A stretch of 64,000 nt of DNA. Origin: Brevibacterium sp. UCMA 11754. GTDB lineage: Bacteria; Actinomycetota; Actinomycetes; Actinomycetales; Brevibacteriaceae. This document shows, piece by piece, positions 24,045 to 32,893 of the stretch. A model generated the notes under the pieces. The model searched no databases. It saw only the letters and a list, made by a program, of their open reading frames with translations, and was not told the origin of the DNA. Each line of letters starts with the position of its first letter. Position 1 is the stretch's first letter. The DNA is taken from contig NZ_JACBOT010000031.1 of NCBI RefSeq assembly GCF_021532275.1, positions 310,001 through 374,000 on the forward strand. The letters are read 5' to 3'. Made by a program: the position numbers and the translations under genes.

Positions 24045-25253
24045 CTAGTGTGAGCGGCGCAGAGCTCGCAGTATCCAGGACACGACACCGGCGAGGAGCA
24101 GCAGCAGGGCGCAAACGAGGAACGTCGCGGAGTCGCCGAGATAGGTGAACCCGAGTCCGCCGAGGACTCCGGCGATGGCCAATCCGATGTCGAAATTCAT
24201 GTTCCAGGCAACGCTGGCCTTCGCCGGAGTGCTGACATTGGAAAACGCCATCACCAGGCTCGCCGACTGCAGTGTGCCCAGCCCCAGGCCGATGATCATC
24301 ATCGCGAGGCAGAGCATTCCGCCGAATGCGACGACGGTGACGACGAGCCCGATGATGGCGAGGGCAAGGCCCAGAAGGTTGAGTGCGAACGGGGAGAAAC
24401 GGTCGGCGATGGCGCCGGCTGCGAACCTGCCGACCACGGCCGATAGCTGCATGGCGCCTATGTACAGTGCGGCCCCGGCGATGTCCTCGCCCGGGCCGAA
24501 TCCGATGATGAGTCCGAAGACCACCATGCCGATGAGGAACGGAGAGAGCATGATGACCAGGTACAGGGCCTCACCGAGGCTGCGGCCAGTCTTGCGCAGA
24601 GCCCCGTGTCCTCTCGGTCCGTTGCGAACTGTGACCCCGGAATCGTCGGTCGAAGCCTTCGCGGTCCTGCGTTCACGGCCAGGCAGGAACTTCACGACAG
24701 TCGGCACCGCCAGGAGCAGCGAAAAGCACACAATCATTCTGAAGGTCCAGACGGGGACCGTGCCGACCAGCCACAGTCCGAATGGAGCTCCGACGGCAGA
24801 AGCCAATGAAGTGATTCCGCCGAAGAAGCCAAGCGCCTTGCCGATGCGGCCAGGAGACGTCGTGGAAGGCACCGCGGCATTGGCCAGAACCACGAAGAGT
24901 CCGAAGCCCACTCCCCCGCACAGTCCGGCCAGCACCAAACCGAGCAGCGGTGCGGGCACGGTCAGACCGAGGATCTGTCCCAGCAGCTGCAGACCCAGCG
25001 CGAAGAACAGTGCGCCCTTGAGACCAAGCACTCTGCCTACCCACGGAGCAAAGGGCTGAGCGACGATGACGCCGATCATCATCGTCGTCAGGACCGAACC
25101 TCCGGTGACTGTCGAGAGTCCGTTGACGGCCGCGATCGAGACCATCGTCGAATAGCTGAAGAAGAAAGCCGAAAATCCGAACATCGCGGTCCACACAAGG
25201 CCCAGCAGTGCTGGGGTGAACGTCGAAGCATCAGACCTGTCGGAACTCATCAT
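24045..25253 (-). CDS. MFS transporter
   Basis: Major facilitator permease of 402 residues with twelve predicted helices and a charged cytoplasmic central loop (about residues 190-225). Helix 1-2 shows FGFSAFFFSYSTMVSIAAVNGLS, and the motif A equivalents are WVGRVLGLKGALFFALG and AGAIADRFSPFALNLLG. Substrate unknown. It lies downstream of and on the same strand as the YihY/BrkB gene, with a 23-base gap. No clear ribosome site is seen; ATG 25250 is an equally possible start. Confidence 0.85.
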   Translation of the reverse strand: MMSSDRSDASTFTPALLGLVWTAMFGFSAFFFSYSTMVSIAAVNGLSTVTGGSVLTTMMIGVIVAQPFAPWVGRVLGLKGALFFALGLQLLGQILGLTVPAPLLGLVLAGLCGGVGFGLFVVLANAAVPSTTSPGRIGKALGFFGGITSLASAVGAPFGLWLVGTVPVWTFRMIVCFSLLLAVPTVVKFLPGRERRTAKASTDDSGVTVRNGPRGHGALRKTGRSLGEALYLVIMLSPFLIGMVVFGLIIGFGPGEDIAGAALYIGAMQLSAVVGRFAAGAIADRFSPFALNLLGLALAIIGLVVTVVAFGGMLCLAMMIIGLGLGTLQSASLVMAFSNVSTPAKASVAWNMNFDIGLAIAGVLGGLGFTYLGDSATFLVCALLLLLAGVVSWILRALRRSH

Positions 25254-27464: not shown

Positions 27465-27902
27465 GAGTTCTCCCGTACGCTGCGCCGCGCCAGGCTCCCG
27501 CTCGCCTTCACCAGTCGTTCTCTTCCATCAGTGCACGCAACTCCATAGCCATCTCCCAAGACGCTCTTCTGACAACCGGCTCGCCCGGTGCTCGAGGATG
27601 GCCGGGCTGCACACCGACATCCTCAGCGAAGGTGGTCCGTCTCCACCCTCGGTCAGTCCCTGCTGAAAGACCGCATCCCCGTCATACGGGTGCGATTCAA
27701 ACTCGGGGTGGCACGTAACATTGTGCCGATTTTCGAAGGTTCGTCAGATCACAATCGATCTTTACTGTACCCGGAAGTTACGCGATTGTAATCCCCCAAT
27801 AACGACTTGCCTCAAAGTCGCCCTCGGGCTGGTTTCCTGGCAGGGTCGCCTGCTAAGATTGAAGTTTTGATTAGCGGATGCCCGCCACGAGCGACAGTCC
27901 AC
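27465..27902. other. 438-bp non-coding or decayed region
   Basis: I see no intact gene. On the minus strand two open stretches in different frames look codon-biased: one around 27745-27620 reading HNVTCHPEFESHPYDGDAVF and one around 27640-27520 ending MAMELRALMEENDW. They may be pieces of one decayed or frameshifted gene. The segment 27700-27880 is AT-richer than the chromosome around it and holds the dyad GCTAA (27853-27857)/TTAGC (27871-27875) just downstream of the transposase-like gene. Confidence 0.35.
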
Positions 27903-29120
27903 TCACCCCGCCAGCTCGGTGATCTCACTGAGTTCGTTCTGCCACCGGCTGATATCTGCAGCGAGCTTCGCGGGGTCGAGGCTGTTGCGGTAGGTGATCA
28001 GCTCGGCTTCCTGCACAGGCGACATGACACCCGCTGCGCTCAAACGGTGCAGCGGCGTCGCAGGATCGTCGTAGATCCGTTTGCGGTGACCGGTCGAGTC
28101 CCTGACCCAGGCGACCGGCTTCCGGATCGGCGTGAAGAAATTCAGTCGATCGTTGACCGCCCTCCACAGATGGTTGAGCGCCCACCTGGCCTCCTCGGTG
28201 TCATAGCGATTGACGAACCCGTACTCGTGGACCAGGTGCTGATGCTTCGAAGCATCCGGCAGCCGGTCTCGCCGATGATCCTTCGGCACAGGACTGTAGT
28301 GGATATCAAGCGCCTGGGCCCACGAGGCGACCGCTTCGTGGACCCTCTCGCATGCGTTGCTCAATTCGACGGCGTTGACCCAGAAGGGAATGCCTTTGAT
28401 CTCGTCGAGCGACCACTGCAGAGTATCGGCGACGAGGTCCGGAGCGTTGTCTGCAAGGCTTCGAGTGAACACCCACCCGGTGTGCAGGCATGTGGCGTTG
28501 AGGGTGAATAGGGAGTCCCCGCTGAGGGCTGGACCCGTGTGGGCAACGGTATCGGCCATGAAGAAGCCAGGTTCGTCCTCATTCTCCCCGCCGGCGAAGT
28601 CGAGAAACTCCGCACTGGGTGCATGAGAGCGCCTCGTTGACACATTGCGAGTCGCAAAGTCACAGGTTCGGGCACACTGCAGGTAGCGGTCAATCGAGGC
28701 AGGGCTGACGGACAGCAGCTCCTGCCGCACTCCCCTGCTGTAACCATCCTCACCGTCTGTCAGGGAACCATGACGCTCCAGAGCATCGAGCAGCACAGGC
28801 ATGGCGGCGGCCAGATACTTTCCACTCTGCCGACCGGACCAATCCCAGACTTGCTCCAATGCAGTCCTGGCCTCGTCGGAATATTTGCCCTCTCTGTGAC
28901 GCGGCCGGTCAGCTTCGTCCAGCAGCGGCTTCTGCCCTCGTGCCAACTGGGCCAAGAGTCTGCGGACATGGTCCCGTGACCACCCAGTCATTACGACGAT
29001 CTCGTCGAGAATCCAGCCTTTGTCCTGCTTCCGTGCTGCTCTGTAGCGATCTAGATAATCGTAGACGATCATCCCGCGTTGTCTCCTCGAACCAGGGTGA
29101 GGAGCTAATTGCGTATGCAT
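27903..29120 (-). CDS. transposase/integrase-derived protein with apparently lost DDE residues
   Basis: Full-length relative of actinobacterial IS481/ISNCY-type integrase transposases. The N-terminal HTH is GWILDEIVVMTGWSRDHVRRLLAQL, followed by the linker GRQSGKYLAAAMPVLLDAL...VSPASIDRYLQ and the core beginning MADTVAHTGPALSGD (first Asp present). Where the family has FDSDNGSEF, this protein has WVNAVELSNA. Where the catalytic Glu is expected (NDQ..VE.KN) it has RDRLPDASKH. The end RYDTEEARWALNHLWRAVNDRLNFFTP fits the family. No terminal inverted repeats were found. Probably exapted. Starts at 29180, 29120 or 29072 are possible; the last two have ribosome sites. Divergent from a WYL regulator. 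Confidence 0.75.
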   Translation of the reverse strand: MHTQLAPHPGSRRQRGMIVYDYLDRYRAARKQDKGWILDEIVVMTGWSRDHVRRLLAQLARGQKPLLDEADRPRHREGKYSDEARTALEQVWDWSGRQSGKYLAAAMPVLLDALERHGSLTDGEDGYSRGVRQELLSVSPASIDRYLQCARTCDFATRNVSTRRSHAPSAEFLDFAGGENEDEPGFFMADTVAHTGPALSGDSLFTLNATCLHTGWVFTRSLADNAPDLVADTLQWSLDEIKGIPFWVNAVELSNACERVHEAVASWAQALDIHYSPVPKDHRRDRLPDASKHQHLVHEYGFVNRYDTEEARWALNHLWRAVNDRLNFFTPIRKPVAWVRDSTGHRKRIYDDPATPLHRLSAAGVMSPVQEAELITYRNSLDPAKLAADISRWQNELSEITELAG

Positions 29121-29201
29121 GAATGCCTCTGTTCCTCCATTTTCGTCACGGCCTCGCTGCCGCATGCAGCTCATTAACATTTCAGAACTCTGATGCTATT
29201 G

Positions 29202-29232
29202 TTTGATTAGGCAGGAGGTCTTCCTAAATCAA
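29202..29232. promoter_or_regulatory. inverted repeat in WYL/transposase-like divergent promoter
   Basis: TTTGATTAGG (29202-29211) and CCTAAATCAA (29223-29232) form a dyad with one bulged base. It sits directly upstream of the AAGGGAGA ribosome site of the WYL gene. The half-site TTTGATTAG recurs at 27866-27874 at the other end of the divergent gene. Candidate autoregulatory operator. Confidence 0.4.
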
Positions 29233-29247
29233 GGGAGACAACAGAAA

Positions 29248-30288
29248 ATGTCACAAACTGCAGCGCGGCTACTCGGATTGCTGTCATTGCTGATGGTTCC
29301 TCGCACTTGGTCCGGCACGGAGCTGGCAGAGCGCCTCAACGTCAGCTCACGCACGGTACGCAACGACATCGGCACATTGCGCGACCTCGGCTACCCTGTC
29401 GAGGGAACCCGCGGCGGAGAGGGCGGATACCGCCTGGGAGCCGGCGGATCGGCTGTGCCGCCACTGCTGCTCAACCCTGACGAAGCCGTCGCCGTTGCTG
29501 TGGGACTCCACTCCGGGCTGAGCTGCATCATCGGCGGAATGGAAGAAACCTCGGCGCAGGCCCTGGCGAAGCTTGAGCAGATCCTGCCCGCAAGCGTGCG
29601 CAACCGTGTGAAGAACCTAGCCCATTTCACAGTCCCGCTGGCCGGCAACCATCCGATGCCGATCGTCGACCCGAATCTGCTGACCCTGATCATCGAGTAC
29701 TGCCACAGCCACGAGAGGTTCAGATTCACCTACACCTCCGAGACTGGTGCCTTTTCGGATCCAGGAGGCACACCGTCGAATAGGGAGCGCGGCGGGGAGT
29801 TCGAGGTGGAGCCCTACCGGCTGGTGAACCATCAGCATCGCTGGTTTCTCCTGACCTTCGACCCTGTGGAAAAGGCTTGGACGATCTTCCGGGTCGAACA
29901 CATCGTGCCCAAACTGCCCGGAGGCCGACGCTTCGAGCCCCGGGCTCTCCCGGCCGAAGACATCGGCGCCTATGTCGAACGCAACGTCTCAGCCAGCAGG
30001 TGGAAACACGCAGCCACAGTCACCGTAGACGCTGCGGCATCCGAGGTCATGAAGATGCTGATGCCGGCCGAAGGCACCGTCGAAGCCCTCGACGAACACC
30101 GCTCGACGGTGAAGATCGGAGCCGAGACTGTCAGCACCATGGCGTTGACGCTGGCCAGGCTCGACGTCGAGTTCGTCGTCGAGGACTCACCGGAGCTCAA
30201 TGCGGAGCTCAGTGCACTCTCGGATCGACTGCTGCGTGCGACGACGCAGGCAGGACCAGCTGCTGCGCACCGTCCCACCTCGATATAA
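29248..30288 (+). CDS. WYL domain transcription regulator (HTH_11)
   Basis: Regulator of 346 residues. The N-terminal DeoR-type winged helix covers about residues 4-58 (TAARLLGLLSLLMVPRTWSGTELAERLNVSSRTVRNDIGTLRDLGYPVE read in segments). A middle region follows, then a WYL domain at about residues 150-240, seen as FEVEPYRLVNHQHRWFLLTFDP and IFRVEHIVPKLP, and a C-terminal WCX-like segment. WYL proteins bind nucleic acid or nucleotide ligands and often control stress or defence genes. The ATG at 29248 (AGGGAGA site) is chosen over TTG 29203. Divergent from the transposase-derived gene. Confidence 0.9.
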   Translation: MSQTAARLLGLLSLLMVPRTWSGTELAERLNVSSRTVRNDIGTLRDLGYPVEGTRGGEGGYRLGAGGSAVPPLLLNPDEAVAVAVGLHSGLSCIIGGMEETSAQALAKLEQILPASVRNRVKNLAHFTVPLAGNHPMPIVDPNLLTLIIEYCHSHERFRFTYTSETGAFSDPGGTPSNRERGGEFEVEPYRLVNHQHRWFLLTFDPVEKAWTIFRVEHIVPKLPGGRRFEPRALPAEDIGAYVERNVSASRWKHAATVTVDAAASEVMKMLMPAEGTVEALDEHRSTVKIGAETVSTMALTLARLDVEFVVEDSPELNAELSALSDRLLRATTQAGPAAAHRPTSI

Positions 30289-30603
30289 CCTGCCGCTCGC
30301 GGCAGAGTCCAACACCGAACGATCCTCACCCGACGTGTCCGCGAAAATCATATTGTCACGCGGCTTTTCGCGGGCATGAGTCGTGAGTCTTGTCCTTTCC
30401 TTGTCTCCTGCGATCGTCGAACTGTAGCTTTCTTAGCAATCGCCTAAGCAGCACCGCGACTATTCCGAGAAATCATTGTGGTCAAATTCCACCACAGTTC
30501 TCTTTTCCCGAGGCAATGATCCATTTCAATGCCTGCGGACGAATTCAATCAGAACCCAATCACATCTGAACAATCACATTCGACATTCGTTTGGAGAATA
30601 CAC
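30289..30603. other. 315-bp intergenic region with two dyads
   Basis: AT-richer than its surroundings and without a convincing gene. The dyad CTTAG (30432-30436)/CTAAG (30444-30448) resembles the TTAG/CTAA arms upstream of the WYL gene. A second dyad, TGTGGT (30477-30482)/ACCACA (30491-30496) followed by a pyrimidine run, may terminate the WYL transcript. The rest probably holds the promoter of the surface-protein gene at 30604. Confidence 0.35.
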
Positions 30604-31263
30604 ATGCGCCCACCGAAATGGCGGATCCCCTTGGCCATCACGGCCGCCGCCTGCATTCTGGGAACCACCCTGCAACCTGGCCCAGCGGCGGCCGACGAAT
30701 ACGCAGACGGAGTGCCGTCGGTCGTCGACGTCAGCCCACGGGCCCTCGCCACCACCGACTTCATCACCGACAACCAAGCGGTGACCATCACGGCCACGGG
30801 CTTCCTTCCAGGTGAGGAGGTGCGGCTCGACATCGCATCCACACCGAGAGGCATCGAGACCATCCACGACAGAAGACGAGCTCGAGCCGATGGAACGGTG
30901 ACGTTTCCAATCGGCGGCCCACCCGGCCGACCGCTCAACACCTACGCCGGCGGCTACCAGGCTGAGATCTCGTCGGAGCAGAGCATGGACGAAGAACACT
31001 TGAGCGAATCGTTCTCGGTCCTGCCCGTCATCCCAGCCAGCGATACAGACACCGGTGCCGATACCGGCGCCGGCACCGGCGGGGCCACGACACAGGTGGG
31101 AAGCATCGGACCTCAGGCAAGGAACGGTATTCAGGTCCCGCCGAGTCCGGGACTCTCGGTCCTCGGCATCGGCCTGAGCATGCTCACCCTCGTCTTCGCC
31201 TCAGCAGCGACCGTCGTCGTGGCACGAAGGTCACCGAAGTCGACGAGCGATGACCGACAGTAA
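30604..31263 (+). CDS. secreted, C-terminally anchored surface protein
   Basis: A 219-residue exported protein. The signal peptide covers residues 1 to about 31 (basic MRPPKWR, hydrophobic core, cleavage after AAA). A beta-rich Ig-like domain follows (about residues 37-135; VTITATGFLPGEEVRLDIAS resembles surface-protein Ig repeats), then a Thr/Gly/Ala linker, a hydrophobic helix (about 182-207) and a basic cytoplasmic tail (ARRSPKSTSDDRQ). No LPXTG motif. It is followed by a membrane protein gene, probably co-expressed. Confidence 0.7.
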   Translation: MRPPKWRIPLAITAAACILGTTLQPGPAAADEYADGVPSVVDVSPRALATTDFITDNQAVTITATGFLPGEEVRLDIASTPRGIETIHDRRRARADGTVTFPIGGPPGRPLNTYAGGYQAEISSEQSMDEEHLSESFSVLPVIPASDTDTGADTGAGTGGATTQVGSIGPQARNGIQVPPSPGLSVLGIGLSMLTLVFASAATVVVARRSPKSTSDDRQ

Positions 31264-31276
31264 GGACAGACAGCAC

Positions 31277-31756
31277 ATGACTCTGCCCGAGCAGATGATC
31301 CGAGCCGAGCTCCTCAACTCACGGATCACGCGAACCAACGCCGTCTACGCCCGCTTCTACGGACCGCTGTGCCTGCTGGTAATCTCGCTGACGTTCTTCC
31401 CCTACTACGAGTCGGAATCAGACAGCTCAATCATCTACGGAAACCTGTGGCAGGAGGTGGTTCGACTCGGACCCGGCTACGACCTGATGGCGCTGCTGGT
31501 CCTCCTCCTGACAGCACTGCTGCTGGCCTTCGCCGCGGTGGGAAAACTGTCGACGAGTGGTCTGATCGCAATCCTGGTGGGATCAACCGTCATCGGTTCC
31601 ACATTGCTGCAGTCCCCCGGGTATGTTGACCCTCCGGCCTACACGGATTTCGGTGTCTTCGATATCGTCCTCAGCTTCCTCACCGCCGGCCTGGTGCTGG
31701 GGCACGCCGTCCACCTGTTCGTCCTCGAACTGGCGTTCCAACGCGGGGGCGTCTGA
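31277..31756 (+). CDS. hypothetical four-helix membrane protein
   Basis: A 159-residue protein with a polar N-terminus and four hydrophobic helices (about residues 30-47, 73-95, 99-116, 131-150). The ATG at 31277 lies ten bases after an AAGGA site overlapping the stop of the surface-protein gene. An upstream ATG at 31250 would overlap that gene by 14 bases. No recognised domain; the likely partner is the preceding surface protein. Confidence 0.65.
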   Translation: MTLPEQMIRAELLNSRITRTNAVYARFYGPLCLLVISLTFFPYYESESDSSIIYGNLWQEVVRLGPGYDLMALLVLLLTALLLAFAAVGKLSTSGLIAILVGSTVIGSTLLQSPGYVDPPAYTDFGVFDIVLSFLTAGLVLGHAVHLFVLELAFQRGGV

Positions 31757-31758
31757 GG

Positions 31759-31800
31759 CTCACCGCGCGAACCTCACCGCGCGAACCTCACCGCGCGAGC
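31759..31800. repeat. 14-bp tandem repeat over the NUDIX stop codon
   Basis: CTCACCGCGCGAAC at 31759-31772 and 31773-31786, then CTCACCGCGCGAGC at 31787-31800. The last copy contains the minus-strand stop codon of the NUDIX gene (31788-31790). The other copies are therefore duplications of that gene's last codons and stop into the gap before the convergent gene. Confidence 0.8.
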
Positions 31801-32231
31801 AGGCCTCGGGCTTCCAACGCGGGAATGACCTGCAGACGAGTCAATGGAGCGAACTGACGCTCATCGGTGTCGACCGGCATCGGGGCGTAGGGAAACCACG
31901 CAGCCTCAGCGATCTCGGCCTGATGGTTGATGCGATCGACGTCGAGTTCAGCAGGCAGACCCTCATAGCAGAACACGTCCCCGATCACTCTGTGGTCGGC
32001 TTCATTGGCCGCATCCGCGGCGAAGGTGCCCAGAGGGGACAGGCGGCCGGCCTCCAGCGCCAGGCCCAGTTCTTCGCTGATCTCCCTGATGATCGTCGCC
32101 TCGGCGCTCTCACCGGATTCGGGTTTGCCGCCGGGAAGCATGAACGACGTCGTGCCCTCCTTGCGAACCATGAGGAGAAGAGGTTCGAATGGGTGCAGCA
32201 GGACGAGTGCGCTGACTCGGATATCGTTCAT
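31788..32231 (-). CDS. NUDIX hydrolase
   Basis: Nucleoside-diphosphate-linked pyrophosphohydrolase of 147 residues. The full Nudix box is present as GGKPESGESAEATIIREISEELGL (about residues 34-57), with the metal-binding REISEE core. LLMVRKEGTTSFMLPGG precedes it. Substrate cannot be assigned. It lies directly downstream of the 3-methyladenine glycosylase gene on the same strand (35 bases), so both may serve DNA or nucleotide maintenance. Confidence 0.92.
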   Translation of the reverse strand: MNDIRVSALVLLHPFEPLLLMVRKEGTTSFMLPGGKPESGESAEATIIREISEELGLALEAGRLSPLGTFAADAANEADHRVIGDVFCYEGLPAELDVDRINHQAEIAEAAWFPYAPMPVDTDERQFAPLTRLQVIPALEARGLLAR

Positions 32232-32266
32232 TCCAGCCTTTCATCAGTCTTTCGTCAGCCTCTCCG

Positions 32267-32893
32267 TCAGTCCTTCCAGACTCCGGAGACACCTCGGCGG
32301 TGGGACCCGAGGACGTGCGTGTCAACCATACCGACCGCCTCCATGAGCGCATACATGGTGGTCGGTCCCACGAACCGGAACCCCTTCTTCTTCAGCGCCT
32401 TCGACAGCGCCAGAGACTCGGGACTCGTGGTGGGAATCTCGCTCAGCGCGCGGGGGTGCGGTGTGGTCTCCGGCTGAAAGCTCCAGATGAAATCGCCGAG
32501 GCCACCTTCCTCGCGCATCGCCAATGTTGCCTTGGCGTTGCCGATGCAGGCTTCGATCTTGCCGCGATGCCGGATGATTCCTGCATCGGCGAGCAGGGAT
32601 TCGATGTCGGTCTCACCGAACTCGGCGACCACCTCGGCGTCGAAGTCCTTGAAGACCTGTCGGAAGCGTTCACGCTTCTTCAGAATCGTCAGCCACGACA
32701 ATCCGGCCTGGAATCCTTCGAGGCTCAATCGTTCGAACATCCCGGATTCGTCCCGAACGGGCAGACCCCATTCGGTGTCGTAGTACGTGCGCAGCAGCGG
32801 GTCACCATAGGCCCACGGAGTTCGGGCGAGCCCGTCCTCGCCTGCCACCGCGCCGTCGGCGGCTGTTCCATCGCCGGCATTCGTCTCTGTCAT
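32267..32893 (-). CDS. tag: DNA-3-methyladenine glycosylase I
   Basis: Base-excision enzyme removing 3-methyladenine. The core matches Tag closely: YYDTEWGLPV, SLEGFQAGLSWLTILKKRERFR with the active-site Glu59, AGIIRHRGKIEACIGNA, IWSFQPE, LSKALKKKGFRFVGPTTMYALMEAVGMVDTHV. Of the four zinc ligands known in E. coli Tag (Cys4, His17, His175, Cys179), only the third is kept (His193). The others align with Thr25, Tyr38 and Ser197, so the zinc site is probably absent. There is a 20-residue acidic N-terminal extension. Ribosome site GGAGAGGG before ATG 32893. Confidence 0.93.
   Translation of the reverse strand: MTETNAGDGTAADGAVAGEDGLARTPWAYGDPLLRTYYDTEWGLPVRDESGMFERLSLEGFQAGLSWLTILKKRERFRQVFKDFDAEVVAEFGETDIESLLADAGIIRHRGKIEACIGNAKATLAMREEGGLGDFIWSFQPETTPHPRALSEIPTTSPESLALSKALKKKGFRFVGPTTMYALMEAVGMVDTHVLGSHRRGVSGVWKD

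Follow-up and report, generated by a model that had tools for sequence, protein, structure and literature searches.

A transposase relative lacking its DDE triad is paired with a divergent WYL regulator in Brevibacterium

In eukaryotes, DDE transposases are well known to have been domesticated, the transposase protein being kept for a host role. The subject here is a protein resembling that class whose host is a bacterium and whose source would be an insertion sequence (IS) transposase: protein A, encoded at 27903..29120 on the reverse strand of a 64,000-nucleotide stretch of Brevibacterium sp. UCMA 11754 (NZ_JACBOT010000031.1, positions 310,001 to 374,000; hereafter the window), back to back with the gene of a WYL-domain regulator. 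Among described bacterial systems, the TnpB-like nuclease-dead repressors (TldRs) resemble protein A in that, as given in the part of the source drawn on here, a transposon protein has lost its catalytic residues and is genetically tied to non-transposon genes (PMC13418256). TldRs are RNA-guided and descend from TnpB and RuvC, whereas protein A is of rve-type DDE descent, carries a protein helix-turn-helix (HTH) and has no known RNA family nearby, as no Rfam family was matched in 27600-32400. On the regulator side, the portions consulted on CapW (PMC9122588) and SiwR (PMC10693628) describe WYL-domain regulators beside genes under their control, like the WYL protein at this locus; SiwR is a mycobacterial regulator that binds single-stranded DNA and responds to genotoxic stress. 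Unlike this locus, neither is mentioned there as having a dead transposase partner. No bacterial DDE transposase lacking its triad and kept as a regulator was found by titles and abstract beginnings among the matches listed, which cover few subscription papers, and the words WYL, IS481 and ISNCY are absent from the main text, the part covered, of the B. aurantiacum mobile-element paper.

The gene of protein A lies in an open reading frame of 425 codons at 27903-29180 on the reverse strand, in line with an initial reading of the DNA made from the letters alone (the sequence-only reading), which had noted an uninterrupted frame of more than 400 codons. The ATG at 29120 is the more likely start, predicting a protein of 405 residues, because stops lie between the upstream start and this ATG in three orthologues (L010, L011 and L026) and because, in the clade of eight genomes that includes the window's, sequence similarity begins there. 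When protein A was aligned with relatives that have the complete D-D-E, the first catalytic Asp (D1) was found retained as Asp190 (GFFMADTVAH), the second (D2) replaced by Ser254 (VELSNACER, where intact relatives have LDFDNGSEF) and the catalytic Glu replaced by Ala290 (LPDASKH, where intact relatives have TIESKNN), with no gaps at the D2 and Glu sites. The sequence-only reading had proposed loss of the DDE site from the fragments WVNAVELSNA and RDRLPDASKH; both were read correctly, and the alignment confirms the loss without placing D, D or E at other positions.

The same replacements recur across the genus. Orthologues of protein A were found in 20 of 57 genus genomes, with 84-94% identity in Brevibacterium antiquum, B. 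aurantiacum and two Brevibacterium sp. strains; all 20 frames are open (that of G023 is cut by a contig end), down to about 60% identity, and no intact orthologue was found in the remaining 37 genomes. D1 is retained in 20/20, D2 is lost in 19/20 (Ser in 18, Val in one; Asp in G043) and the Glu is Ala in all 20, a broken copy in G036 and a fragment in G040 having been left out of these residue counts. In a phylogenetic tree, from which fragments on contigs C18 and C27 of the window's own genome and those of other genomes were left out, the 20 orthologues form one side of a fully supported branch (100/100). The Asp of G043 is probably a reversal, since this sequence lies inside the clade. Among the matches listed from a phylum-wide sample, 26 of 29 relatives outside the own genome have a complete D-D-E, the exceptions being a frame with four stops, a match that ends before the Glu column and one D-D-D. 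As judged from these residues, protein A is a catalytically dead relative of IS transposases, the loss extending across an orthologous clade.

Common descent with IS transposases is supported by the tree and by 44% identity over about 390 residues to two full-length relatives in the own genome, the nearest found there. This agrees with the suggestion of the sequence-only reading that the N-terminal HTH and the whole core had been kept. One of the two (L002) has D-D-E; in the other (L003, G000:C26:63798-64964) Trp replaces the catalytic Glu, and it is apparently a recently dead IS copy. Three D-D-E relatives, L002, L028 and L064, share with protein A the layout of HTH and core (about 37-44% identity over nearly the full length) and differ from it in having the triad, end repeats of the GTGCCTCA type and copies at several places or genomes. 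Around protein A, no inverted repeats of at least 12 bp were found within 27500-29300, as the sequence-only reading had stated of terminal repeats; the own genome holds no close second copy, nor multiple identical copies with such repeats. The gene occupies the same locus in 19 of the 20 genomes (visible on one side only in G023), the exception being G043. The label IS481/ISNCY-type given at first reading holds approximately: descent from an IS transposase stands, and the NCBIfam IS481 profile gave 15.2 bits against a cut-off of 224, covering the HTH only. Pfam gave no rve match for protein A up to an E of 1. Each of three D-D-E relatives scanned matched rve, two of them above the cut-off, as well as IS481, IS30 or IS3 models, the latter all below their cut-offs. 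By sequence profile, the closest solved structure is a retroviral integrase at a weak E of 0.011, and an AlphaFold2 model built from six sequences (predicted local distance difference test 49, predicted template modelling score 0.30) was too poor and was not used.

Selection on the gene was measured as the ratio of nonsynonymous to synonymous substitution rates (dN/dS), again leaving out the broken copy of G036 and the fragment of G040. In ten of the 28 pairs available within the window's clade of eight genomes, values for protein A were 0.12-0.17, which bears out the supposition that the frame is maintained by selection. They are close to those of the WYL gene (0.11-0.17, a comparison that took in up to 18 codons upstream of its ATG at 29248), within the ranges of a neighbouring gene at 24045-25253 (0.11-0.25) and of the small membrane protein described below (0.08-0.30), and above that of a 689-residue neighbour (0.03-0.09). 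A by-region analysis of all 20 genomes, covering both clades, gave 0.50-0.63 for the N-terminal 20 residues, which appear relaxed, 0.20-0.22 for the HTH, 0.12-0.13 for the core and 0.16-0.20 for the C-terminal part. Values were 0.06 and 0.17 for the former D2 region and 0.06-0.08 for the former Glu region. Within the HTH, W47, S48, R49, D50, H51, R53 and R54 are invariant in 20/20. With the catalytic triad gone, the low dN/dS speaks in favour of some function that is not transposition. Conservation within the protein peaks in the former Glu region (mean column identity 0.91), an indication that this site has acquired a new role and a point against decay.

The sequence-only reading had pointed out that protein A faces a WYL regulator, and this pairing is constant. 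The divergent gene (29248..30288, forward strand; 346 residues, HTH_11 and WYL domains) begins at an ATG 127 bp away and stands back to back with the gene of protein A in 20/20 genomes; the spacing is 127 bp throughout the clade of eight that includes the window, and in the other twelve the matched stretches are 183-201 bp apart. A small integral membrane protein (31250..31756, forward strand; 168 residues with at least three hydrophobic segments) completes the cassette in all 20 genomes, with orthologues near full length, so that protein A shares one distribution with the WYL orthologue and the membrane protein, the identical 20 of 57 genomes. The WYL orthologues share at least 63% identity (in seven genomes as two pieces of one frame), and the next WYL relatives at most 46%. 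Gene calling relied on a simple heuristic based on GC content at third codon positions (GC3), which missed protein A in L048 and L050 and the decayed copy in L061; these were recovered by tblastn.

Natural empty and decayed sites accompany the intact cassettes. At the canonical site, remnants persist in three genomes, none of which was found to have a WYL orthologue: protein A and the membrane protein have left pieces in G040, protein A and both other proteins in G036, and the membrane protein a scrap in G037. In 14 further loci around the flanking gene, blastn found no cassette DNA, and the canonical flanks were recognisable in 12 of them; the site is not recognisable in G005 and G009, and at least 2 kb of other sequence lies between the flanks in G056, G026 and G019. 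The canonical site of G043 is one of those 12 loci. Its cassette (L058, G043:C53) is whole, with other genes around it, and lies about 60 kb away from the canonical flank; because both are on the same contig, a local move suffices, and horizontal transfer was set aside as unneeded. On the tree of the flanking gene (33 rows, 19 with the cassette), at least six gains or losses are required. The presence vectors of protein A and the WYL gene are identical, hence the six independent differences in presence provide no separate test of the two. Joint presence and absence supports but does not prove a common function of the cassette genes.

The divergent intergenic region common to the two genes (29121..29247, 127 bp) has 38 of 127 positions invariant in the 20 genomes, and within it lies a conserved 19-bp block, AGGCAGGAGGTCTTCCTAA (29209..29227), chosen after the alignment had been viewed, in which 18 of 19 positions are invariant; by way of control, the fourfold sites of gene A are invariant at 6/75. 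An exact 20-mer is present in 18/20 genomes, with one mismatch in the other two. In the own genome, a 17-mer of the block occurs once at up to two mismatches, and the same pattern written backwards, used as a control, matched twice. The block contains an imperfect palindrome, AGGAGGTCTTCCT, and is located just downstream of a sigma-70-like promoter facing the WYL gene (TTAACA-17-TATTGT with TG before the -10; 29174..29202, forward strand). This promoter is predicted from a consensus match only, the sole such match in the scanned region, where about one is expected by chance. Its -10 region (29193-29202) shows the pattern ATG.TA.T.T invariant in all 20 genomes. The block is a probable operator. 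CapW, in the portion of its description consulted, is a WYL repressor whose binding sites, imperfect palindromes of 19-24 bp, overlap the -10 of its own operon (PMC9122588), and a dimer of the WYL protein is on this analogy a likelier binder of the block than protein A. The possibility that the block preserves an ancestral transposase-binding site was rejected: a weight matrix built from eight end repeats of D-D-E relatives scored no higher in the 20 intergenic regions than in shuffles, the share of 200 shuffles reaching the score being 0.145-0.795. Because of this null result, the TGCCT common to IS ends and the block is not counted as evidence.

Taken as a whole, the observations are best explained, with somewhat better than even probability in our judgement, by protein A being an exapted dead DDE transposase that now acts as regulatory partner of the WYL protein on the WYL operon, DNA binding being the inferred part. 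The pattern looked for in exaptation is found, in that the orthologues occupy a fixed locus (G043 being located elsewhere), are under purifying selection and bear no signs of mobility. In this scenario, an IS transposase would have been exapted in the Brevibacterium lineage, losing D2 and the catalytic Glu while retaining the N-terminal HTH and the whole core, and would have become a fixed member of a chromosomal cassette with the divergent WYL regulator and the small membrane protein. Protein A would bind DNA in or near the shared promoter through its HTH, perhaps beside the 19-bp block, or may serve as a co-regulator, and would cooperate with or antagonise the WYL protein in controlling the WYL-membrane protein operon. 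The region of the former active site, now remodelled, probably provides a surface for a partner or ligand. Several observations weigh against such a role. The conserved block is unlike the ends of related IS elements, and no direct sign was found that protein A still recognises DNA near its own gene; an imperfect palindrome of 19 bp beside a -10 suits a WYL dimer at least as well. Joint loss is no proof of joint function, because the genes are adjacent and a single deletion removes all of them. The D2 position of the G043 protein does hold an Asp, and five related IS copies have a dN/dS of 0.085, so that a low value alone cannot separate a host role from transposition.

The conservation of the HTH bears on two other explanations, each of which we consider unlikely and to the same degree. 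Protein A could work by protein-protein contact only, for instance with the WYL or the membrane protein, its DNA binding having been lost, as the stronger constraint on the former Glu region than on the HTH (0.06-0.08 against 0.20-0.22) and the lack of an IS-end-like site in the promoter would fit; the HTH is nevertheless still under purifying selection, with invariant recognition-helix residues. It could instead be a trans-dominant inhibitor of related active IS elements, binding their ends or forming dead mixed oligomers. The clade does retain the HTH and full core, and a related IS copy with D-D-E is present in the own genome, with further ones in other parts of the genus. However, IS genes 40-46% identical to protein A are found both in genomes that bear it (G000, G011, G021, G022 and G027, with a fragment in G033) and in genomes without an intact copy (G003, G040 and G051), so the two neither exclude nor require each other, and the constant pairing with the WYL operon would be left unexplained.

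The remaining explanations fare far worse. That protein A is a passenger or decaying pseudogene without a role has in its favour the broken copy of G036 and the truncated one of G040, yet both sit where the WYL orthologue is also lost, and 20 open frames diverged to about 60% identity, with dN/dS of 0.12-0.17 in the clade tested, make this very improbable. Slightly more improbable still is an active or mobilisable transposase that uses substitute acidic residues: Asp190 is retained, all 20 sequences have Glu252, and residue 289 is acidic throughout (Glu or Asp), but the gap-free alignment puts Glu252 and residue 289 off the catalytic positions, and no close second copy, no terminal repeats and a shared locus in 19/20 genomes speak against mobility. 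The sequence-only reading had also hinted at a link to defence. A WYL-linked defence system was considered and is unsupported: PADLOC, run on five proteins, matched the WYL protein alone, so nothing but the WYL domain itself backs the hint, and no known defence effector was found in the operon.

Other genes accompany the cassette less constantly. In the window, a 244-residue protein (30529..31263, forward strand, counted from the longest start) with a C-terminal hydrophobic segment is probably secreted and anchored, its signal peptide having been judged by eye; it lies between the WYL and membrane protein genes in 8 of the 20 cassettes, and G043 has a 29% relative. Six of the 20 genomes encode, at another place, an additional and more distantly related version of the membrane protein. 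Relatives of the membrane protein with 40-49% identity were seen at other loci (L096, L097, L098, L099 and L100), several of which adjoin genes that resemble fdhD and molybdenum-cofactor genes, as named by reading their sequences. A gene of cluster c21 (444-484 residues) is found near the cassette site in L045 (G022), L046 (G042), L047 (G027) and L061 (G036) and was not called in the window.

Another clade of transposase relatives that lack D-D-E (group B) was found in 12 Brevibacterium genomes (L062, L063 and L066-L075, for example L069:5841-7007), 34-38% identical to protein A. In its members, Glu stands in place of D1, D2 is replaced by Pro, Ser or Ala, and the alignment is gapped where the catalytic Glu would fall; dN/dS is 0.15-0.23. 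In 7 of the 12 loci, they adjoin four constant genes, for two desaturase-like flavoproteins, a P450 and a polyprenyl synthase, and a phytoene-synthase-like gene was recognised in five of these seven; the carotenoid-type identities were confirmed by Pfam at one locus, L069. A common dead ancestor of protein A and group B is possible, the joint branch having support of 94/97 at a point where long branches meet. It is possible, and offered tentatively, that in Brevibacterium one IS transposase lineage has given rise to several regulators, a small family without DDE activity that would parallel the TldRs with protein only. One member would belong with a WYL regulator and a membrane protein and another with carotenoid operons, the catalytic region having been rebuilt as a conserved new pocket or partner surface.

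The arrangement at the window's locus suggests that protein A has been recruited into a genetic switch of the cell. The locus lends itself to testing: the site is short and defined, the partner is fixed, natural empty sites exist and D-D-E relatives can serve as controls. If the proposal is true, some open reading frames that resemble broken transposases would be genuine regulators.
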